In this document: positions 4,829 to 16,729 of the stretch, in pieces | How positions within the stretch are numbered: position 1 is the stretch's first letter | Layout: each line of letters opens with the position of its first letter | Assembly: GCA_903843045.1 (NCBI GenBank) | Contig: CAIMOJ010000037.1 | Span: forward strand, 1 to 37,298 | Origin: Candidatus Uhrbacteria bacterium | Lineage (GTDB): Bacteria > Patescibacteriota > Patescibacteriia > UBA9934 > GWF2-40-263 | DNA length: 37,298 nt | Direction of reading: 5' to 3' | Notes under the pieces: generated by a model | The model's input: only the letters and a program-made list of their open reading frames with translations | Told to the model about the DNA's origin: nothing | Databases searched by the model: none | Position numbers and translations under genes: made by a program

Positions 4829-5989
4829 ATGAGCAACCAAAAACCCGGGATCAACCGCGAGGCATTCCTCGTCCGAGATCTCTTCGACAAGGAGATCGAG
4901 CAGAAGCCGACGCGCGATGGGTTCGGGCTCGGGGTCGTCGACGCGGCAAAGCTCGACGAGAACGTCGTCGTTCTCTGCGCCGACCTCACCGAGTCGACGC
5001 GGGCGCTGTGGTTCAAGGAAAAATTTCCGAACCGGTTCGTGCAGATGGGCGTGTCCGAGCAGTCGATGGCGGCAATCGCGGCCGGGATGGCGATGGCCGG
5101 AAAGGTTCCGTTCATCGCAAGCTACGCGGCCTTCTCCCCGGGAAGGAACTGGGAGCAGATCCGTACCACCGCGTCGCTTTCCGACACCAACATGAAGATC
5201 GTCGGAGCCCACGCGGGAGTCTCGGTCGGTCCGGACGGGGCTACGCACCAGATGACCGAGGATATCGCCATCATGCGCGTCCTTCCGAACATGATCGTCG
5301 TGTCGCCGTGCGACGCGGTCGAGGCCAAGAAGGCAACGATGGCGGGCGCGAAGGTCGTCGGGCCGGTATACCTACGCTTCGCCCGCGAGAAATCGCCGGT
5401 ATTCACCACCAACAAGACCCCGTTCAAGCTCGGCCGCGCCGAGACGTTCCGATTCGGCGACGATCTCACGATCATCGCGACCGGTCCCCTTCTCTACGAG
5501 GCGCTCCTTGCCGCCGAGCAGCTGTCGAAGCGCGGCATCGAGGCCCGCGTGCTCAACGTCCACACGATCAAGCCGCTCGACACGAAGGCGATCGCCCTCG
5601 CCGCGAAGGAAACGGGCGCGATCGTGACGGTCGAGGAGGCACAGGCGGCCGGCGGCCTTGGCGGAGTCGTCTGCGAGACCGTCGCGTCGCTCTGCCCCGT
5701 CCCGGTCGAGCGCGTCGGCATGCCGGACCGCTTCGGCGAGTCGGGAGAGCCGAAGGAACTGCTCGAGGCGTTTGGGATGACCGCGCCGTACATCGCGATG
5801 GCCGCGGAACGGGTGCTGCGACGAAAGCGCGGAGAGAAGGTCGAGGCGACCCTGCCGTTCGTCACGGCGGCCGCGGAGAAGATCGTCGAGATGCGCGCGG
5901 CGGTGATGAAGGAAGCGTTAGGCCGGGCTCCGCGGAAGTGGGGCGGGAATAAGTCGGACTTGTCGCTGAAGTCGAGGACGAAGAAATAG
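4829..5989 (+). CDS. Transketolase, C-terminal subunit
   Basis: VVLCADLTESTRALWF, RFVQMGVSEQSMAAIAAGMAMAGKVPFIASYAAFSPGRNWEQIR, VTVEEAQAAGGLGGVV. Confidence 0.93.
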   Translation: MSNQKPGINREAFLVRDLFDKEIEQKPTRDGFGLGVVDAAKLDENVVVLCADLTESTRALWFKEKFPNRFVQMGVSEQSMAAIAAGMAMAGKVPFIASYAAFSPGRNWEQIRTTASLSDTNMKIVGAHAGVSVGPDGATHQMTEDIAIMRVLPNMIVVSPCDAVEAKKATMAGAKVVGPVYLRFAREKSPVFTTNKTPFKLGRAETFRFGDDLTIIATGPLLYEALLAAEQLSKRGIEARVLNVHTIKPLDTKAIALAAKETGAIVTVEEAQAAGGLGGVVCETVASLCPVPVERVGMPDRFGESGEPKELLEAFGMTAPYIAMAAERVLRRKRGEKVEATLPFVTAAAEKIVEMRAAVMKEALGRAPRKWGGNKSDLSLKSRTKK

Positions 5990-5991
5990 AC

Positions 5992-6027
5992 GAACGAAAA
6001 AACTGGCATCTGCCAGTTTTTTCGTTC
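5992..6027. terminator. Bidirectional terminator between convergent genes
   Basis: GAACGAAAAAACTGGCA-TC-TGCCAGTTTTTTCGTTC, perfect 17-bp arms with T runs on both strands. Confidence 0.9.
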
Positions 6028-6040
6028 CGTGTCTCCAAAA

Positions 6041-6871
6041 CTACTGAGTCTTTTCTGATTTCTGCACTTTGATAAACCCGTGCGTGTCCCAATGGCGCGC
6101 TTCCATCGAGCCGACGGTAGAATCGGCCTTGTACGATTCCGAGTTGATGATCGCTGGAAAGGCCGGCGCATTCTCTCCCGGAAAGATCGTCAGGACGGTC
6201 GGGCGGCCGGATGCCTTGTCCTTTTGGAGGATGAGCGTGACCTTGTCCGTCGCGGACGCACGCTTGAACTCCCCTTCCGGCACGAGAATCAGGTTTCCGA
6301 GCGGCTCGAACTTTCCGTGCGGATTCTTCACGGCTCCGTTCTCGTCCAGCGCGACCGAAAACTTGCCGGACGCGTCCCTCGCGGTCTCGGGATACCAGGC
6401 GCCCTCGATCCCGTTCTCCGTGGCCAGTTCCCCGCCAGGAAAGCGCATTTTCTTTTCAACGATCGCCCCCGGAAACTGGTCCTGGATTCCCTCGAGGCTT
6501 CGAACTCCGGACCAGCCGACAGGCTTGCCGTCCGCGCGCGCGATTCCGACGGTAATTTCCGCGCGGCCATGCTGGTCGTACGAGAGATTTTCTGGCAGGA
6601 CGGCCTTCAGGAGGTCCCGGATCTCATCCGGGCTCTTGACGACGTCCCCGTTGAAGACGCTCCCGGCGACGTCGCCGCCATGATGGACCTTCAGGTGCTG
6701 CAGAGAGGCGCCAAAGTCAATGTCCTCCCTTGAGAATGCCTCGCCAAGCTCCACGCTGCCGTCGCCGCGCGTGGAAGCCTGCTCCATGGAGCCAAGCGAA
6801 CACTCGGCCAGGCGAGCCTCAACCTCCGCGCGATGCGCGGCCTCCTCCGGGCTCAAGCCGTCTGTTGCCAT
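6041..6871 (-). CDS. Orphan protein with GRAEITVGIARADG and TVLTIFPGENAP motifs
   Basis: Open frame with own promoter and leader; weak motif-level similarity to the 11830-12621 product. Confidence 0.7.
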   Translation of the reverse strand: MATDGLSPEEAAHRAEVEARLAECSLGSMEQASTRGDGSVELGEAFSREDIDFGASLQHLKVHHGGDVAGSVFNGDVVKSPDEIRDLLKAVLPENLSYDQHGRAEITVGIARADGKPVGWSGVRSLEGIQDQFPGAIVEKKMRFPGGELATENGIEGAWYPETARDASGKFSVALDENGAVKNPHGKFEPLGNLILVPEGEFKRASATDKVTLILQKDKASGRPTVLTIFPGENAPAFPAIINSESYKADSTVGSMEARHWDTHGFIKVQKSEKTQ

Positions 6872-6908
6872 ATCGTCTGATTCGTTTCTTAGCCGCGATA
6901 AAACAAAA

Positions 6909-6936
6909 TGGGACGCCGAAAATTCTCGGTGCCCCA
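6909..6936 (-). promoter_or_regulatory. 5' leader hairpin, locus A
   Basis: Minus strand TGGGGCACCGAGAATTTTCGGCGTCCCA followed by TTTTGTTTT; same fold and near-identical sequence at 13583-13610. Confidence 0.75.
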
Positions 6937-6950
6937 CGTCTCATAAGAAC

Positions 6951-6979
6951 AGTGTATCATTTTTTCGACGCGACGTCAA
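6951..6979 (-). promoter_or_regulatory. Promoter A
   Basis: Minus strand TTGACG-17 nt-TACACT. Confidence 0.75.
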
Positions 6980-7073
6980 ACGAAGATCGGGCGGAACGTG
7001 CCGCGCGAAGAAGCATGACACGAGGCAATCCCTGTGAGACAATGAACATATAGTTTTTGGAACCCCTTCGCGT

Positions 7074-7268
7074 ATGTCCATGACGGAAGAGCAGCGAAAC
7101 GAGATCCGTAAGGATCTCAAGACGGAGCTTGCAAGGGCCGAGAAGCGGCATGCGCGAATCGTTTCCGACGTGCAGAAAATAGACGGGGCGCTCAAGAGGC
7201 AGCAGGGCGAGAACACGCAGGTTGAGATCGACCAGCTCAGGAGGAAAATAGCCGAGATGCCCATATGA
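7074..7268 (+). CDS. Small coiled-coil protein
   Basis: 64 aa, charged heptad-like sequence; 4-nt ATGA overlap with the next gene. Confidence 0.65.
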   Translation: MSMTEEQRNEIRKDLKTELARAEKRHARIVSDVQKIDGALKRQQGENTQVEIDQLRRKIAEMPI

Positions 7269-9844
7269 GCAGCGGAAACGTGGACGTTCCCGTCCCAACC
7301 GAGATCGAAAAGCGGCCCGAGGCCCCGAAGGCGGACCGCGAGCCGGCCAAGCCCGAGGCGGAAACGATCGAATCGCTCAAGGAAGCCATCGACCGGCTCG
7401 ACCGGGCGGATTTGGGATTGGTTCGGAGCACGCTCGACCGGGTGGTGACGCAAAGAAACAAGCTGATCGAACTGATCAAGAACGCGAAAAGCGGAGAGGA
7501 GCGGGCGCTGGTCATTGCCAACAAAAAGGAGATCGACTCCATTTGGAACCGCCTGGGCGCGATGGAGGCCGAGCTCACGAAAGAGGATCCAATCGCAAAG
7601 ATTCCGCGCGAGAAGGAACGCCGGGTTTTTTCCGCGCTCGTCGACTCGCTTCCGACGCAGGCGCTGAGGGACGTCTACAAGAAAAATCTGGAACTGCTGC
7701 TCCTCCAGCCGAACGACGTCAAGGTCACGACGGGAGTGCAGGGCCTCATCTTCGAACTGATGCGAATCGCGATCGCAAAGGAGCAGGGGCTGGAAACGGT
7801 AAGCTGGGCCGCGTCGGTCGATTCGGGAAACGAGACCTATCCCGCGATGAGGACCGAGAGGAAGAAGGGCGGGCTCGCGACGGCGACGAACGAAATCGTG
7901 GACAGGCCCATCGGAACGATTCAGCTCGACGTCCCGATCGTCCGGACGGGCGACGACGGAATCGACCGGGTATTCGTGTATGAGACGAAATCCTCCCCGA
8001 GGATGCAATACGGAAGCGATGCCGAACAACGAAACCAGCTGATAAAATACCAGGAGGCCGTCCGCAAGAACCTGGTCGCAGGCGCGGTCGTGGAGATTAG
8101 CGGTCGAATCGACCCGACTTTTCTCAAGTGGGCGCTTGGAACGGGCATCGAAGGTCTTGGGCCGATCCCGAACGTCGAGATCGTCTATACCCTGCCGCTT
8201 CCCAGCGGAAAGGAATATCGCTTCCCTCTCAAGCAAGCCCCGCAGGATGGCGGAAACCTTCGATTCGCGAACGACGACGTCTCCTATTCGGACGCTGATC
8301 GGCGCGTCATCGCAGGCTTGCAGTACGCGCTCAAGGACAGGGCAAAGGAACTCGTGGTGAGGGTGCTTACCGAAACGAACATAGAGAATCCCTCGGCCGC
8401 GCTTGCCGGGCAGCTGGGCGACCCCCAACAGATAACCGACCTGGCCGTATTCGGCGAATACGAGCAGAAACGGCTTGAGGGAATCTTCCGGACGATCGAG
8501 GCAATCTCGCAGCGACCAGTCGTGAACGAGACGGACAAGGATGCCGCGTACCGAGCGGAGGTCGACCGGCCCTACATCGAAAAGATGGTTCGGCAATATC
8601 AGGAGTTCCTTCGGGAGAACCCGTCCATCGCGAAGGCGAAAAAGACATACGTCCTTCCGGGAAAGGCCGGGTCCGAGATCTTTGAGGCAAGCATCGCCCG
8701 AACGGTCGATCACATGGCGGCCCAGGTGGAAAAGATTCGGGCGAACGAGCAGGAGCGGGCCCAGTCCGAGGAGGAACGGGCAAGGCGTGCCGAGCGCATC
8801 GCGCTCGGATACGACGGTCCGCCGGAGGGAGTTGCCCTCGACCTGGACCACGTGATGCTGGACGCCATCCAGGAGCTGTTCCAGGGAGAAGGAAAGAAGG
8901 GACGGTCGTATGAGAATCCCGAGTCGCGGTTTTTCAACCCCGGGAAGCTGAGGGAATTCCTCGCGAACCCGGCGCTCGACCGCCGGTACCGGGAACTGTC
9001 GATCCAAGACCCGCTCGCCGGAGCCGAGGATCAACGAGTCCAACAACGAAAGGACCTCGGGGACCAGAGCATCCGTCAGATTGAAAACGGCTTAATCGTG
9101 GAAAATTTGAAGCGCGCGGACAAGATCCTCCTGGCCAATTCAGCGAGGAAGGACGAACTGCGTGCAAAGCAGGACCTGACGCCGGAAGAGACGCTCGAGC
9201 TGCGACGTTTGGACAAACAGGGAAAAACGGAGCAACTCGAACAAAAAAATATCCTTGCGCTCAAGGAAAAGATCCAGGCGCTTCCGAAGCAGAAGGGCGA
9301 TACGCTGAGGCAAACGACCGACAACGCGGCGAAGCAGTCGATCGCCGCGGAGTTCGACGCGCAAATCCTCGACGCCCGAACGAGCCTGACGGAAGCTTAC
9401 AAGAAGATCATTGGCAAAAAGGAATGGGACGAGTCGGCGCTCAAGATCCGCGACCGCGTAGACCGCAACGTCATCAAGTTCATCTACGTCGTGACGAACA
9501 CGGGCGACGTGCGATTCGACGAGGAGAAGTTCGGCGGACCCGTCACGGGAAGGGCGGCACACTCCGAGCTTGCAGCCGGAGAAAACGTGTACGGCGGCGG
9601 TGAGATTGCGTTCGAGAAGCAGAAGGACGGCACCTGGAAGATGACGGAGATCAACAATGGTTCCGGCCATTACCGACCGAGCGGAAAGACGCTGGACTAC
9701 GTGAAGTCATCGCTGGGAAGAGCGGGATTCGACGTGAAGAACGCGCGAAGAATCGACGCGCTCATGCGCATTGACCTGGAGGCCGGGCAGGAGCTCGCGC
9801 CGACCGTTAGGGAGGACATTCAGGATCTCTCGCTCGTGGCATAA
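7265..9844 (+). CDS. 859-aa multidomain protein; possible PD-(D/E)XK-like motif and polymorphic-toxin-like C-terminal module
   Basis: Full-length ORF; DDGIDRVFVYETKSSPRMQ...QRNQLIKYQEAV; C-term TGRAAHSELAAGENVYGGGEI...INNGSGHYRPSGKTL. Confidence 0.8.
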   Translation: MSSGNVDVPVPTEIEKRPEAPKADREPAKPEAETIESLKEAIDRLDRADLGLVRSTLDRVVTQRNKLIELIKNAKSGEERALVIANKKEIDSIWNRLGAMEAELTKEDPIAKIPREKERRVFSALVDSLPTQALRDVYKKNLELLLLQPNDVKVTTGVQGLIFELMRIAIAKEQGLETVSWAASVDSGNETYPAMRTERKKGGLATATNEIVDRPIGTIQLDVPIVRTGDDGIDRVFVYETKSSPRMQYGSDAEQRNQLIKYQEAVRKNLVAGAVVEISGRIDPTFLKWALGTGIEGLGPIPNVEIVYTLPLPSGKEYRFPLKQAPQDGGNLRFANDDVSYSDADRRVIAGLQYALKDRAKELVVRVLTETNIENPSAALAGQLGDPQQITDLAVFGEYEQKRLEGIFRTIEAISQRPVVNETDKDAAYRAEVDRPYIEKMVRQYQEFLRENPSIAKAKKTYVLPGKAGSEIFEASIARTVDHMAAQVEKIRANEQERAQSEEERARRAERIALGYDGPPEGVALDLDHVMLDAIQELFQGEGKKGRSYENPESRFFNPGKLREFLANPALDRRYRELSIQDPLAGAEDQRVQQRKDLGDQSIRQIENGLIVENLKRADKILLANSARKDELRAKQDLTPEETLELRRLDKQGKTEQLEQKNILALKEKIQALPKQKGDTLRQTTDNAAKQSIAAEFDAQILDARTSLTEAYKKIIGKKEWDESALKIRDRVDRNVIKFIYVVTNTGDVRFDEEKFGGPVTGRAAHSELAAGENVYGGGEIAFEKQKDGTWKMTEINNGSGHYRPSGKTLDYVKSSLGRAGFDVKNARRIDALMRIDLEAGQELAPTVREDIQDLSLVA

Positions 9845-9862
9845 GGACAGGGAATCCAAACG

Positions 9863-9890
9863 AAAAGACTGGCCAAACGGCCAGTCTTTT
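9863..9890. terminator. Bidirectional terminator
   Basis: AAAAGACTGGCC-AAAC-GGCCAGTCTTTT between convergent genes. Confidence 0.9.
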
Positions 9891-9905
9891 TATTATTGCA
9901 TTATT

Positions 9906-10283
9906 CTACTCCTCAAAGACAGCCAAACGCTCGTGATAGACCCCTTCCATCCGCGCGACCGCATTCTTCTTCGCGCGTTCCAACGCGCTCGCAAATTCGT
10001 CGCCCGACGCGTTGAGCTTTGAGATTTCGATCGCGAACTCACGAACGATCCTCGTCAGGTCGAGTTTCATTCCCATGGTTATGGTCATCTTGGCAAAGAT
10101 CTCCCTTTCCTTCGACGCGATCGCGTCCAGGGCCTGCTTTCTCGCGAGTGCGCGCTGAGCCTCGCCGTCCGTGGTTTTCTCGCGACCCATGCCTCCACGG
10201 TGCTGCTCGCCCAACGCAATGCCGAGCACGGAAGGAGGAATCTTGCCCGCATGCTCGTGTCCGACGGATGTTTCTGGAGACAT
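9906..10283 (-). CDS. Hypothetical protein (last gene of five-gene operon)
   Basis: 125-aa ORF closely following 10293-10979. Confidence 0.55.
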   Translation of the reverse strand: MSPETSVGHEHAGKIPPSVLGIALGEQHRGGMGREKTTDGEAQRALARKQALDAIASKEREIFAKMTITMGMKLDLTRIVREFAIEISKLNASGDEFASALERAKKNAVARMEGVYHERLAVFEE

Positions 10284-10292
10284 AGGATATTC

Positions 10293-10979
10293 TTAGGTGA
10301 GTATCTTTTCCTTCGGCAGCGGCCGCGCCTCGATCTTCGGATACACGTCCCCGCGCAACTGGGCCTCGTAGTCCTTGATCCCGATCCCGAGGCCAGTCGC
10401 GTCGCCGTTGTCCTTCACGTACAGCGTCACGTGCGCGGCCGGGTGGCCGAGGTCGATTCCAAGTTCGGCACGAAGCTTGTCGTAGAACGCCACCATTCCG
10501 GGCATGTGGACGTCCATGACAACCGACTTCTCGGACGTGTGCTGCTTTCTGCCAACCTTGGAACGCACGGCATCCGCGTCGTACTCGAGGTTCGTCACGA
10601 CCTTCGCGCTGGTCGGATCGATCTCGAACGAGAAGTCCGTCTCCGACAGCAGCTCGTTGATCCGGCCCGTGACCGCGGCTTGATCGCCCCCGCGCTCAGC
10701 GGCGACCGCTCTCACAAGTTCCGCCCCGTCAAAGCCGATGGCCGTGACATGGAACTCCTTCTTTCTTTGAAACGATCCTTCCGGAAGGACAACCGTCGTT
10801 CTCAAGGCAAGCGCCCGCTCGATCGCGGGAGTGACGGGAAGAATGTACGTCAGATCCTTCTTCCCTCCTTCCTCAATAAGTCGTCGGGACTCCGGTGGAA
10901 CGGAAACGACAAGACGCGCGGATTTCTCCCGAATCTCGCCGATCAGTTCGGTCGGGTCGATTGGTTGGGATTCGCTCAT
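10293..10979 (-). CDS. 2H phosphoesterase-like protein
   Basis: Two HxT motifs: KKEFHVTAIGF and HPAAHVTLYVK. Confidence 0.65.
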   Translation of the reverse strand: MSESQPIDPTELIGEIREKSARLVVSVPPESRRLIEEGGKKDLTYILPVTPAIERALALRTTVVLPEGSFQRKKEFHVTAIGFDGAELVRAVAAERGGDQAAVTGRINELLSETDFSFEIDPTSAKVVTNLEYDADAVRSKVGRKQHTSEKSVVMDVHMPGMVAFYDKLRAELGIDLGHPAAHVTLYVKDNGDATGLGIGIKDYEAQLRGDVYPKIEARPLPKEKILT

Positions 10980-11824
10980 ACGAGTGCTTCACGAACGATT
11001 TTTAGAAACGCCTGCCGATTTTGCTCGCGTTCCTCCTCCCCCTGCTCGAAGTCGAACAAGCCGAAGGTGTGACCCGCTCCCGGAATCGTGACGCGACGGA
11101 CGCTCTGCGCGACCGACTGGAACGCCTGCGCCTCGTCCTCGGTCGTGACCTCGTCGCGGTCGCCTCGGATGACCACGGTCTTTCCCTTGAATACCGAGAG
11201 CGGACCGAGAAATGCGACGGAATCCGGGACCGAGTCGAGAATCGGCTTGCGTGCCGCGGGATCGTCGGATGGGACCTTGGCGGACGGCGACGCAAGAACG
11301 AGGCGGTCGGTCGACTCATTATACCTGGAGGAAAGCTGGGCCGCGATGGTCGCGCCGAGCGAGGTGCCGAGGATATCGAGGCGAACCTTGTCGCGCGAGA
11401 CGCCGAACAGCTCCGGAGCGCGATCAAGGACGGCGTCGATCGCCCGCTGAAAATCCTCGACCTCCATGTCGTACGTCTTTCCCGCGAACCCTGACGTCAT
11501 GAAATCATCGCCGCCGTCCTCGCTCATGAACGGCTTCTCGCCGTCCGGGTCGAAGTTCTCGTGCCGCGACGACGTGACCAGCACGACGCTTTCGGAAGAA
11601 TCGCCTAGCGCCTCGGCAACGTCGACGTATTCGGACGACGACGAGTGGCTGCCGTGCAGGCAAACAAGGACGCGCGCATCCTTCCCGATCTTTCGCGCCT
11701 TCGCGTCAATTTCGACGCGGACCGGAAGATCCCCCGGCGCGCAGAGCGTGCCGGGGATTTCTAGCTGGATCTTGCGCCGGGACTCGAATTGAATCTCGGG
11801 GTTTTCACGGGATGGGTCGGACAT
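10976..11824 (-). CDS. Alpha/beta hydrolase fold protein
   Basis: VLVCLHGSHSSSSE, LDILGTSLGATIAAQLS (GxSxG), VVIRGDRDEVT, IPGAGHTFGLF. Confidence 0.85.
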   Translation of the reverse strand: MSDPSRENPEIQFESRRKIQLEIPGTLCAPGDLPVRVEIDAKARKIGKDARVLVCLHGSHSSSSEYVDVAEALGDSSESVVLVTSSRHENFDPDGEKPFMSEDGGDDFMTSGFAGKTYDMEVEDFQRAIDAVLDRAPELFGVSRDKVRLDILGTSLGATIAAQLSSRYNESTDRLVLASPSAKVPSDDPAARKPILDSVPDSVAFLGPLSVFKGKTVVIRGDRDEVTTEDEAQAFQSVAQSVRRVTIPGAGHTFGLFDFEQGEEEREQNRQAFLKIVREALV

Positions 11825-11829
11825 ATTTC

Positions 11830-12621
11830 CTAGATTACCTCGTACTTTGAGGAAACTTCATCCAGGTTTCCCGGAACGATCTTCACGTAGTCGTTTTCCG
11901 TCAGGTTTGCCCCGCTCATCACCTCGGCGAGGGTCATCACGCGCGCCGGCTGCTTCTCGCCGGCCGGAACCTCGTCCGGTCCGACGAGGCCCTGCGTGAA
12001 CGAGTACTCGCCGCCGGCCGGACGGATCGGGGCACCCGGATGCACCGTCCACACGCCGTTGTCCTCGCCGGGGGAACGGCCCACGATAATCGTGGCAAAG
12101 TCCGTCTTCGGCATGTCGTCGACCGTTCCGCGAATGACCGTGAACGAGACCGGCACGTAGGTCTTGCGGTCGCTCGGGTCGCTCTTGCCCTTCTCGCGGC
12201 GGACGAAAACGCGGGTGGACGGGTCGAGGTCGCCGACGCGGGCGATGCCGAGGCGGCCCTCGACGTTGTCGACCTTAAAGTAGAGCGCTTCCGGCAAACC
12301 GGCCGGTGCGTCGGTGTCCTTGGTCGCCGGCAAAAATGCGCTCGCCGGAGCTCCCGCCGCAAGCAGCGCCTCGCGGTCGTCCACGCGGTTCGCGACGTCC
12401 TTTCCAAGATCCTGGCGCATGGCGACCACGTCAAAGATATTCCCGACGCGCTCGTCCGTAAACTTAGACCCCCCCTCCCCCGGGCCGCAGTGCATCTGGT
12501 TCGTGGACTCGTAGTAGCCGAGGTTTTCTTCCGGAAGCAACGCCTGAACGTCCTTCGACATCTTCATTCGGGTGTCGCGCAGCGACAGCTTGGCCTCTCC
12601 TTCGCGAATTGGGTCGGACAT
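11830..12621 (-). CDS. Orphan protein, distant paralogue of 6041-6871 product
   Basis: EGRLGIARVGD and GVWTVHPGAPIRP motifs; N-term MSDPIREG like the neighbouring MSDPSREN. Confidence 0.65.
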   Translation of the reverse strand: MSDPIREGEAKLSLRDTRMKMSKDVQALLPEENLGYYESTNQMHCGPGEGGSKFTDERVGNIFDVVAMRQDLGKDVANRVDDREALLAAGAPASAFLPATKDTDAPAGLPEALYFKVDNVEGRLGIARVGDLDPSTRVFVRREKGKSDPSDRKTYVPVSFTVIRGTVDDMPKTDFATIIVGRSPGEDNGVWTVHPGAPIRPAGGEYSFTQGLVGPDEVPAGEKQPARVMTLAEVMSGANLTENDYVKIVPGNLDEVSSKYEVI

Positions 12622-12644
12622 ATTGGTATTTGTTCTATTTATTA

Positions 12645-13544
12645 TTAAATTTTTTCGCTCTTCTTGATCGCGTCCCGCACGCTTCCCATCTCTCCGCGCA
12701 GCTTGCCGCCGAGCTTTCCAACCAGCGGGCCAAGCGCGTCCGAGCCGCCTTTCGCGGCCTCGATGATTTCTTCCCGCATCCCCTTGTGCTCCTCGCGGTT
12801 CAGCGCCGGAACGGTTGCAAGCAGCTCGGTCAATGCCTCAATGTCATACGCGACGCTTTTCTTCGCCTCCGGTGTCGCAACCGGCTTTTCCTGCTTCGCC
12901 TGCTTTTCAGACCCCGACAGCGATCCGAACTTCATTCCGGCCGCCTCGACCATCGGAAGAAGGTCGGCAAACTGCGGATCCGCGACTTTTTCGACGGGTC
13001 CGAGTACCGGCTTACCCTTCTCGTTCGTCCCGGTGATCTGCATATGGAGATCGGCGCCCTCAAAGCCGAGCGTTACGTGCAGGTACTTCGGAGGCAAGCC
13101 GACGGATGCGCGGAACGCCTGCAGCTTCGGCGCGTCCAGCGCGACGAATGCCGCTCGCTTTACCTTGTCTACCTCGCGCACGTTCATCACCGCCCCGTCC
13201 AGGAATCCGATTCCTGCGACCGTGATTCCCTCGCCGCGCTGGAGCTCATCGTTCAGCGCTTCCAGCTCGGCAATCTTCTCCGGAGGAAGCGTCTTGATAA
13301 CGCTGTACTCCGTCGGTCCGACGATCGTCATATGGAATCCGTCCGGCCGCTTTTCCATCTTCAGGCCGAGCCGATCGTTGACCGCCTTCAAGACCGGATC
13401 GAAATCCGCGTGAATCTCCGTCTCGAGCGATGAGAGCGCGGCCAGACGCTCCGGGGTAAGAACGGACGGCGAGCCGGCCTCGACCGTGCATTCGCCGTTG
13501 CGATGGCCTTCCTTTCCGCACACCTTGCACGCTGTCTCCGACAT
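12645..13544 (-). CDS. CCHC zinc-knuckle protein with 2H-phosphoesterase-like domain
   Basis: N-term CKVCGKEGHRNGEC = C-x2-C-x4-H-x4-C; then GFHMTIVG and LHVTLGF (two HxT motifs). Confidence 0.65.
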   Translation of the reverse strand: MSETACKVCGKEGHRNGECTVEAGSPSVLTPERLAALSSLETEIHADFDPVLKAVNDRLGLKMEKRPDGFHMTIVGPTEYSVIKTLPPEKIAELEALNDELQRGEGITVAGIGFLDGAVMNVREVDKVKRAAFVALDAPKLQAFRASVGLPPKYLHVTLGFEGADLHMQITGTNEKGKPVLGPVEKVADPQFADLLPMVEAAGMKFGSLSGSEKQAKQEKPVATPEAKKSVAYDIEALTELLATVPALNREEHKGMREEIIEAAKGGSDALGPLVGKLGGKLRGEMGSVRDAIKKSEKI

Positions 13545-13582
13545 AATATTTCGATTACCGCTTGAAAGAGCGTAAATAAAAA

Positions 13583-13610
13583 TGGGACGCCGGAAAATTC
13601 CGGTGCCCCA
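13583..13610 (-). promoter_or_regulatory. 5' leader hairpin, locus B
   Basis: Minus strand TGGGGCACCGGAATTTTCCGGCGTCCCA followed by TTTTTATTT. Confidence 0.78.
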
Positions 13611-13624
13611 CGTCTCATGAAACT

Positions 13625-13653
13625 AGTATATCATTTTTTTCGACGCGCGTCAA
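13625..13653 (-). promoter_or_regulatory. Promoter B
   Basis: Minus strand TTGACG-17 nt-TATACT. Confidence 0.8.
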
Positions 13654-13675
13654 ACGCTTCGACGATCGAGGTGCA

Positions 13676-15052
13676 TTATTTCGATTCGCTTTCTCGAGCG
13701 GACCCCACGCGCTTCTCAATCTCCGCGCGGATCTCTTCCGATACTCCCGGTGTCTCGCCGAGAAGTCCCGTTTGAACGGCCAGCACGATCTTTTGCTGGA
13801 GCTCCTTGAATCCTTTTCCGGGGACGATCCCCGCGGCGATGAGGCTTTGGCTGTCGAGCCCCGCAGTCACGAGAATGGCGTCCATTCGGTCCTTCTCTTC
13901 CTTTTCTCTCGCCGCAAGCTCGGCCTTCCGCTTGTTCTCGGCGACCCAGGCCGGATGCGCCTCGGCGGCGAGCCAGAAGTTCGTCAGAGGCTCGACGTTG
14001 ACGACGTCGACGCGCTTCTTCGTCTCCGTCTTCTCTTCCGGCTGCTTGAGCGTACCGAGCACTCCATCCACGAGCATTCCCGATTGGAGGACGCGGATGG
14101 CCGTTTCCGGGTCGACGCCCGCGTCCCGCGCCTTCTGGGCGAAAAACTCGTAGTCGGACGGCTCGGCGCGGGTGAACTTGATGAGCGGGTTGATGTGCTG
14201 CTCGATGGCAAACTTGAGCATCGCCTTTTCCGAATCGGTCAGGCCCAGCGTCTCGGTCATCCGCTCGACGACCGCGAGATTGTCGCCGTCATATGCCTGT
14301 TCGGCATGGCCGCGATAGCTGATGGAGATCTTATATTTCTCAAAGAAAGCCGTCTGGAGCGCCTTCGGATCAAGACCGGGATTCTCGGAGGAGAACGCGG
14401 CCACCAGTTCCTCGTGCTTCTTGGCCAGCTCGGCGCGACGGACGGACTGCTCGGCCTTGAACGCGTCGTACGCGTCGCCTCCGGCGTCCTTTGCCTTCGT
14501 CTTGCGCTTCTCCGTCTCCTTGTCCGCCGCCTTGTCCGGAAACCCGAGCGTCACGGCAGGACTTCCTTCGCCGGCAAGGAACCCGATGGTGTCCGGCTTG
14601 GCAACGTCGTGCAGGAACGCGAACGCGATGAGCAAATTCGGATGCTCCTGGGCAATCTTCTCAATCTCACGCCACTGGTCGCGGAATCCCGCGACGGGCA
14701 AAAACTCAACGGCCTTCTCAAACGGCAGCTTTCCATCGCGCAGCAGGATGACGGCGGAAAGAATCGTACGATAATGATCCTCGATCCGCGGCCCTTCCGC
14801 GTGCTTGTCCGGCGACTGCGGGGCGCGAAGGATCTCGACGACCTTCGGCTCGGCCTCGGCAAATTTCAAAAGCAGTTCGTCGGCCTCGCGCGAGACCTCG
14901 GCAATCTCCATGATCGCCTCAAGCACGTCCGCGCTGTCTCGCGGCCCGCCTTCGATTCGCAACGCCTGCCGATAATCACCGGACTCGATGCGATACGCCA
15001 TGCCGAGCTCGCCGCCGCGTCCAAAGGCCGAACCATTTCTTTCCGGAGGCAT
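13676..15052 (-). CDS. HD-domain protein resembling the HD/C-terminal part of CCA-adding enzymes
   Basis: EDHYRTILSA, FAFLHDVAKPDTIGF, YRGHAEQAYDG; C-term SLIAAGIVPGKGFKELQQKI recalls the tRNA nucleotidyltransferase tail. Confidence 0.65.
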   Translation of the reverse strand: MPPERNGSAFGRGGELGMAYRIESGDYRQALRIEGGPRDSADVLEAIMEIAEVSREADELLLKFAEAEPKVVEILRAPQSPDKHAEGPRIEDHYRTILSAVILLRDGKLPFEKAVEFLPVAGFRDQWREIEKIAQEHPNLLIAFAFLHDVAKPDTIGFLAGEGSPAVTLGFPDKAADKETEKRKTKAKDAGGDAYDAFKAEQSVRRAELAKKHEELVAAFSSENPGLDPKALQTAFFEKYKISISYRGHAEQAYDGDNLAVVERMTETLGLTDSEKAMLKFAIEQHINPLIKFTRAEPSDYEFFAQKARDAGVDPETAIRVLQSGMLVDGVLGTLKQPEEKTETKKRVDVVNVEPLTNFWLAAEAHPAWVAENKRKAELAAREKEEKDRMDAILVTAGLDSQSLIAAGIVPGKGFKELQQKIVLAVQTGLLGETPGVSEEIRAEIEKRVGSARESESK

Positions 15053-15094
15053 AATGGGAAGGATCACGAAGTAAATAAAGTCATTACAGATTGC

Positions 15095-15634
15095 CTATTC
15101 CGCCAATCGTTCCGCCCGTTGTTCCTTGTCGGTCCAGACCCAATCGTCCTTCAAAACCTCGTCTCCAATTTGCTCGATCTCTCTCATCACGTCGTTTTTC
15201 AACCAATCGGCCGCGAATGCGAACCGTTCCATTTCCGTCTTTCCGTCGGACCCGCCATCAATGTCGCCGTAATCGATGTTGTAGTCGCCGAGACCGAATC
15301 GTTCCTCCTGATCGGAAGATTCTGACGCGGCGCGACCGATCGCCTTCGCGATGCGGAGTTTCGCGTCGACGGCGGTCGGAGACTGCATGTCATCCAGGCG
15401 GTCTCCGATCAAATTCATCATCTTGGTCGCCGATTCCAACAAATCCTTGCGCATGGCGAGGCGCTCCTTGGCGTCCGCGGCCTTCTGGCGTTCCGCACGC
15501 CGGGCCTTCTCAAGTTTCGCCGCGTCCTTCGCCGCTTCCGCCGCGACCCTGGCCTTCTCCGCGGCATTTCGTTCCATCTGCGCGGCAACCTCCTTCACGA
15601 ATTCAGGGTCGCGTGCCATGTCATGGGAGCCCAT
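15095..15634 (-). CDS. Hypothetical coiled-coil protein
   Basis: 179 aa, Ala/Lys/Glu-rich helix then acidic C-term; follows leader C. Confidence 0.6.
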   Translation of the reverse strand: MGSHDMARDPEFVKEVAAQMERNAAEKARVAAEAAKDAAKLEKARRAERQKAADAKERLAMRKDLLESATKMMNLIGDRLDDMQSPTAVDAKLRIAKAIGRAASESSDQEERFGLGDYNIDYGDIDGGSDGKTEMERFAFAADWLKNDVMREIEQIGDEVLKDDWVWTDKEQRAERLAE

Positions 15635-15663
15635 AGTGAACGTGATCGAGAATAAAAAAAATA

Positions 15664-15691
15664 CGTGAAGCCCGGAACTCCGGGACCCACG
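15664..15691 (-). promoter_or_regulatory. 5' leader hairpin, locus C
   Basis: Minus strand CGTGGGTCCCGGAGTTCCGGGCTTCACG followed by TATTTTTTTTATT. Confidence 0.75.
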
Positions 15692-15704
15692 CCTTCATAA
15701 GACA

Positions 15705-15733
15705 AGTATACCAAAAAATTTCGCTCCCGTCAA
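15705..15733 (-). promoter_or_regulatory. Promoter C
   Basis: Minus strand TTGACG-17 nt-TATACT. Confidence 0.8.
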
Positions 15734-15757
15734 TTTTTTTGGTATCATCTGCTCACT

Positions 15758-16729
15758 ATGCTAGACATGATCACCATCGGAGACACGAAGCTCGACACGT
15801 TCGTCCTTCTCAACAACGCGTCGGTGCAATGCACGCTGAAGATGCCGGAATGCCTGCTTTGCATGGAATACGGCGCAAAGATTGCCGTGGAGGTCGTGCT
15901 TTCGCAGATCGCGGGAACGGCGCCGAACGTGGCGACGGGGCTGGCGAGGATGGGACGGAAGACGGCCGTGATCTCGAACATGGGAAATGACGGGACGTTC
16001 GCGCAGGCGCTGGAAACGTTCAAGCGAGAGGGGGTCTCGTCGCGACTTATCCACATCGTTCCGAAGGAGCCGAGCGCGTACTCGGTCGTGCTGAACTATC
16101 ATGGCGACCGGACGCTGCTTACCTCGCACATCAAGCGTGCCTATCACTTTCCGAAGCCGCTTCCGAAGACGAAGTGGATGTACGTGAGCGAAATGGGGCC
16201 GGGATATGAGACGCTGTACCGCTCCGTGACGGCCTATGCGCGGGCCGACCACACGAAGGTCGTCTTAAACCCGGGAAGCATCCAGATTTCGGAGAAAAAG
16301 AAGTATTTATTCGACCTGATCAAGGTCGTGGACATCCTGTTCGTGAACCTGGAGGAAGCGCAGGCGATCGCGGGCGACAAGACAACGGAGGTTCACAAGC
16401 TCGCGGTGGACCTTTGGAAGCTGGGGGCAAAGCACGTGGTCATCACCGATGGCAAGAACGGCGCGTACAACTTCGACGGCGAGCAGATGGCGCGCATGCC
16501 CATATTCCCGGCCCACGTGGTCGAGACCACCGGCGCCGGCGACGCGTTCTCGACGGGATACCTGGGCGCCCTCATGGCGGGCGAGAGCTATGACACGGCC
16601 CTCCGCTGGGGCGCGGTAAACTCCGCGAGCGTGGTCCAGCACGTCGGGCCCACGAAGGGACTGCTGAACATGACGCAGATCAAGTCGCATCTGAGGAAGC
16701 ATCCGGGGGTGAAGCCGGAAAAGATCTAA
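15758..16729 (+). CDS. PfkB-family carbohydrate kinase (1)
   Basis: GTAPNVATGLARMG, VVLNPGSIQI, LFVNLEEAQAIAG, VVETTGAGDAFSTGYLGALM. Confidence 0.9.
   Translation: MLDMITIGDTKLDTFVLLNNASVQCTLKMPECLLCMEYGAKIAVEVVLSQIAGTAPNVATGLARMGRKTAVISNMGNDGTFAQALETFKREGVSSRLIHIVPKEPSAYSVVLNYHGDRTLLTSHIKRAYHFPKPLPKTKWMYVSEMGPGYETLYRSVTAYARADHTKVVLNPGSIQISEKKKYLFDLIKVVDILFVNLEEAQAIAGDKTTEVHKLAVDLWKLGAKHVVITDGKNGAYNFDGEQMARMPIFPAHVVETTGAGDAFSTGYLGALMAGESYDTALRWGAVNSASVVQHVGPTKGLLNMTQIKSHLRKHPGVKPEKI

Follow-up and report, generated by a model that had tools for sequence, protein, structure and literature searches.

In Bacillus subtilis, pyrG is controlled by a reiterative-transcription attenuator, in which a short-leader terminator works without a conventional antiterminator and slippage needs a run of identical nucleotides at the transcription start. 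A hairpin can also act close to the 5' end of an mRNA with no need for a U run, as does the 5'-terminal stabilising stem of Escherichia coli ompA. The rimP-leader, an attenuator of rimP-nusA-infB for which NusA has been proposed as regulator, is a short terminator whose 5' arm is rich in G and whose 3' arm is rich in C, with a U stretch; it has no antiterminator and lies 4-130 nt ahead of the gene (Naville and Gautheret 2010; PMC2965389). In GraL, the leader of E. coli greA, an intrinsic terminator begins 19 nt past the start and about two thirds of the transcripts stop there (PMC6829880). In B. subtilis, NusA also helps terminator hairpins that are suboptimal (PMC8060035). Little is known about gene regulation in small-genome, mostly uncultured bacteria such as the Patescibacteria, and our literature search found no papers on leaders in this group.

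The window analysed here, a stretch of 37,298 nt from a Candidatus Uhrbacteria bacterium, carries three minus-strand modules that share one layout: TTGACG, 17 nt, TAYACT, 6 nt, ATGA, a 12-bp hairpin from about +8 and a U run (Table 1). Each of them probably works as an attenuator that has no antiterminator and consists of an intrinsic terminator close to the promoter. The layout, coordinates, spacing and sequences that the original prediction had given for the three loci were all found as described, and so was its claim that hairpin C keeps the fold despite its different sequence, including the 1x1 internal mismatch (A.C in A and B, U.C in C). In the window, the operon start codon lies 25-45 nt beyond each module. 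Modules A and B match at 84% across ~67 nt, and this repeat does not continue past the U run, so that what is conserved is the module itself. No repeats beyond promoter, hairpin and U run were found around the module copies, by which integron-like or mobile ends were rejected. Separately, a GACGCGCGTC palindrome spans the -35 of promoter B (13640-13655), with GACG-TCG-CGTC in A (6965-6980), and a long AT-rich palindrome surrounds promoter C (15708-15745) and is common with the divergent pfkB side.

Table 1. Modules, island and genes in the window (positions in nt)
Feature	Position	Strand	Description
Island	6001-15733		between tktC (4829-5989, +) and pfkB (15758-16729, +)
Module A	6900-6979	-	whole extent
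Promoter A	6951-6979	-	-35 TTGACG 6979-6974, 17 nt, -10 TACACT 6956-6951; predicted start 6944, A of ATG
Hairpin A	6909-6936	-	12 bp, 1x1 mismatch
U run A	6900-6908	-	UUUUGUUUU
Gene A1	6041-6871	-	behind module A; without family match
Module B	13574-13653	-	whole extent
Promoter B	13625-13653	-	-35 TTGACG, 17 nt, -10 TATACT; predicted start 13618
Hairpin B	13583-13610	-	12 bp, 1x1 mismatch
U run B	13574-13582	-	UUUUUAUUU
Gene B1	12645-13544	-	CCHC zinc-knuckle-like N-terminus and 2H phosphoesterase
Gene B2	11830-12621	-	operon B
Gene B3	10976-11824	-	operon B; alpha/beta hydrolase
Gene B4	10293-10979	-	operon B
Gene B5	9906-10283	-	operon B
Operon B terminator	near 9867-9886		
Module C	15654-15733	-	whole extent
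Promoter C	15705-15733	-	-35 TTGACG, 17 nt, -10 TATACT; predicted start 15698; divergent from pfkB
Hairpin C	15664-15691	-	fold as A and B, sequence different
U run C	15654-15661	-	UUUUUUUU
Gene C1	15095-15634	-	behind module C; without family match
Gene C2	13676-15067	-	without family match

The three-copy pattern is not due to chance. The exact TTGACG-N17-TAYACT arrangement occurs at three sites in the window, which are the three modules, and with up to two mismatches there are 7 matches compared with 1.97 expected (sd 1.37), a number reached in none of 100 shuffles. The 60-66 nt stretches of A, B and C fold with -21.9, -23.6 and -18.8 kcal/mol (z-scores against shuffles of -3.0, -4.5 and -2.3). 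In a 286-kb sample of the genome, a terminator-like hairpin beginning within 20 nt of a strong sigma70-type start was found at the three modules only, the chance expectation for such pairings being ~0.36 as calculated from 107 promoters and 108 hairpins. A covariance model search of the whole 1.28-Mb genome likewise returned the three module copies only, and none of the Rfam 15 models, riboswitches included, matched the modules.

Outside this genome, two more species of the genus, represented by the Candidatus Uhrbacteria genomes nzgw368 and RIFOXYB12_FULL_58_10, have the module next to pfkB in the same position. One of these genomes (G001) carries copy C at the same divergent site with changes in loop and stem; in the other (G002), the layout is retained and the stem sequence almost wholly replaced with its pairing kept. 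Since model R1 missed the G002 copy, models R2 and R3 were built, and R2 recovered it (E 3.5e-6 in 50 kb). In the alignment of the five copies, 96.7% of the cells are paired and 7 of the 12 base pairs show compensatory changes on both sides; the covariation score of 0.78 exceeds those of shuffles (0.31) and of slid partners (0.25 at most). This score is somewhat inflated because the alignment (A7) was fitted to the structure, although each stem also folds alone, and the genus copies are few and related to each other, which limits the independent evidence. Every stem contains two to four G-U pairs and is stabler on the transcribed strand, and on these two grounds the hairpin most likely works as RNA. 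Thus, covarying copies, whose absence from related genomes would have contradicted the original prediction, do exist in two other species, in agreement with its proposal of a cis-regulatory RNA element.

The close sequence family is narrow. A pattern scan of 85,462 genomes found relatives of the module in the two Uhrbacteria only; its other matches were a single unrelated site in a Zixiibacteriota MAG and tRNA promoters of Latescibacterota and of a Gemmatimonadota MAG. In each of the three species, the pfkB-side module is followed by a different first gene. As a side observation, that of G001 has a run of 12 G just past its ATG (L014:871-884) and a zinc-knuckle frame one base off the ATG frame; this tract could be either phase-variable or a homopolymer error.

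The position of the hairpin depends on where transcription starts. In the 286-kb sample, from which our start rule was derived, 13 of the 31 TATACT boxes have an ATG 6-10 nt downstream, and genes with an ATG 8-9 nt from the -10 mostly show a purine at 7 nt past the -10 with a pyrimidine before it. As every -10 box of the five copies is followed by an ATG exactly 6 nt further on, this purine-after-pyrimidine rule predicts in all five a start at or next to the A of ATGA, 7 nt past the -10, and a hairpin beginning ~8 nt after the start, within the ten or so nucleotides originally proposed. On contigs C46, C27 and C37 of G000, ATG is strongly enriched 5-10 nt past TATACT/TATAAT boxes, which suggests that this genome has many leaderless or near-leaderless genes.

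While the sequence family is confined to the genus, the architecture extends across the order. Outside the genus, R3 gave 26 weak matches at E<=0.05 in 383 genomes of the class, roughly the chance number (~19 expected); they were taken as leads only and led to nusA and comM. Orthologues of both genes were searched in 73 genomes of the order, and the upstream DNA of the best 30 loci each was read (L159-L188 for nusA, L189-L218 for comM). At 25/27 promoter-scored nusA loci and 27/28 comM loci, the promoter is followed by a hairpin that folds at -9 kcal/mol or lower and begins no later than +14, compared with 13% and 5% of shuffled leaders, respectively, with some selection possible since the start is chosen by the promoter search itself. 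The -35 boxes are mostly exact TTGACA, and the stems are unrelated to those of the modules. The nusA stem is well conserved (ACCUGUC...GACGGGU, with U-G/U-A exchange), and the U content past it falls from 65% in the first four nt to 15% at nt 9-12. The comM stem is highly variable, yet a hairpin is found at the same place, with the comM start codon directly at the U run; its automatic alignment was too loose for covariation scoring. The genome studied here has both leaders, that of comM (L203) and that of nusA (L185), which lies far upstream of the ATG and was found by eye. General promoters carry such a hairpin at a lower rate than nusA and comM (4/13 in this genome, 14/66 in G007), and Rfam gave no match for those nusA and comM loci that were tested as representatives. 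In genus g25, five genomes (L068, L070, L073, L075, L079) have an AUG at the leaderless position ahead of the hairpin that is in frame with the gene downstream, and the hairpin may there be inside the coding region.

How would such a module act? Transcription would start on the A of the ATG or on a neighbouring nucleotide, and the first ~40 nt would form a strong hairpin and a U run, i.e., an intrinsic terminator met essentially only by transcripts of its own promoter. This reading is suggested by the U run on every stem (0-3 nt past it in all five copies), from the short fixed distance to the start, and from the lack of a same-strand gene upstream of A and C, whose neighbours are divergent and leave no other same-strand transcript to terminate. 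The hairpin and U run lie on the transcribed strand between the promoter and the first gene, where a promoter-proximal attenuator is expected. An ordinary gene-end terminator was ruled out for A and C by the divergent neighbours; module B follows operon C and could also end it. Part of the polymerase would stop at about +45 and release short RNAs, and the remainder would read through into the operon. As fewer than 10 nt precede the stem, there is no room for a classical upstream antiterminator, so that read-through would depend on a trans-acting factor, on polymerase or elongation-complex state, or on a ribosome at the 5' AUG. NusA is our first candidate regulator, since nusA itself is preceded by the same layout. 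The terminator scores of d'Aubenton-Carafa are moderate and count against termination: 11-32 for A and B, 2-9 for C and the G001 copy and negative for G002, compared with 22-50 for most gene-end terminators of this genome.

These modest scores of C, G001 and G002 are among the points in favour of the main rival, a 5'-terminal stem that blocks 5'-end-dependent decay or keeps a start region without Shine-Dalgarno sequence open, with no termination involved. We consider it a possible but rather unlikely alternative. A strong stem within ~8 nt of the 5' end in every copy, kept through sequence change, speaks for it; however, it does not need the U run present in all five modules, U enrichment is also seen after the nusA stem, and with 6-7 unpaired nucleotides in front of the stem the 5' end would stay accessible. 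The original prediction had left attenuator, stabilising stem and protein-binding site side by side; the attenuator fits best, given the U run and the lack of a same-strand gene upstream of A and C. Markedly less probable is a switch in which a 70S ribosome on the 5' AUG covers the 5' arm of the stem and stops termination, so that the operon reports ribosome availability. The ATG placed exactly at the predicted start in 5/5 copies and the frequency of leaderless-type genes in this genome speak for it, but its reading frame is conserved neither in length nor in frame (41, 76, 25, 63 and 19 codons) and most nusA and comM leaders have no initial AUG. We give very little credit to a DNA operator, an inverted repeat from +8 to +37 bound by a repressor as duplex: operators are typically placed right behind the start and three copies lie within one island, but the G-U pairs, the greater stability of the transcribed strand and the exchanged but still paired stem of G002 all argue for RNA. 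Equally hard to sustain is the view of the module as a ~45-nt sRNA gene with a terminator that lies before an operon by coincidence, for although GraL is both leader and sRNA (PMC6829880) and units of like layout without ORF exist in other families, an operon follows 25-45 nt behind every copy in the window, and neither loop nor stem shows the conservation expected of a pairing seed. Those units (L093, L096, L100 and L109, from four genomes of three families) consist of a promoter, a ACUAAACGUGGAGCGGAUAUUUCGUAUGUCCGCUC-type hairpin and a U run; no 60-codon ORF begins within 330 nt, and they possibly represent a tiny RNA gene of ~45 nt.

The modules serve a variable island. Other members of the family, G004 and G005 among them, have the transketolase gene tktC directly next to pfkB and no module, which identifies 6001-15733 as an insertion. 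Nearly all the downstream genes are orphans, as the original prediction had it, the exceptions being the 2H phosphoesterase of B1 and the alpha/beta hydrolase of B3. Gene B4 has a homologue in G001 (57% identity), gene A1 has none in the 73 genomes of the order, and outside the genus a single island-gene homologue was found, in G028, without a module. In B4, two HxT motifs suggest a second 2H enzyme in operon B. A viral origin was rejected, as the exact pattern is absent from viral contigs and the island proteins have no PHROG or PADLOC match. From the shared sequence, co-regulation of the three operons is plausible. The proposed regulon of the island's orphan genes is only partly borne out: the close sequence family is limited to genus and locus, but the architecture recurs order-wide at nusA and comM. 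Going further, hairpin terminators at the start site could serve throughout this order of Patescibacteria as a general layer of control, in which nusA, comM and accessory operons would have in common a leader consisting solely of promoter, terminator from a few nucleotides past the start and short spacer, the island modules being a recruited and duplicated version, and one signal (NusA level or ribosomes on the 5' AUG) would set a dispersed regulon without DNA-binding regulators. We regard this extension as speculative and rather improbable.

Taken together, our results describe a type of leader that can be recognised from its layout and is maintained through compensating changes, found order-wide at nusA and comM and reused for a variable island; it predicts short RNAs of ~40-50 nt and a requirement for an elongation factor that all these leaders would share. 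Among known systems, the stem of ompA lies near the 5' end like that of the modules, which differ in keeping a U run in all copies. A pyrG-type mechanism would require a run of identical nucleotides at the start, whereas the predicted start is AUGA in 5/5 modules. The rimP-leader is alike in being a short terminator leader without antiterminator. However, its stem model (GGGc...gCCC) differs from the module stems, the B. subtilis leader is 180 nt long while the module stem begins ~8 nt past the predicted start, and it precedes rimP, nusA or infB, not island genes; its covariance model found no match in the window from 5900 to 16000 (E<=5) or at the nusA and comM loci (E<=1). GraL shares the succession of promoter and intrinsic terminator, the module stem being even nearer to the start, but it controls greA through GreA, while the modules have no greA downstream and no sequence in common with it. 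These two precedents, together with the aid that NusA brings to suboptimal hairpins, make an attenuator set by NusA or by the elongation complex our preferred reading.
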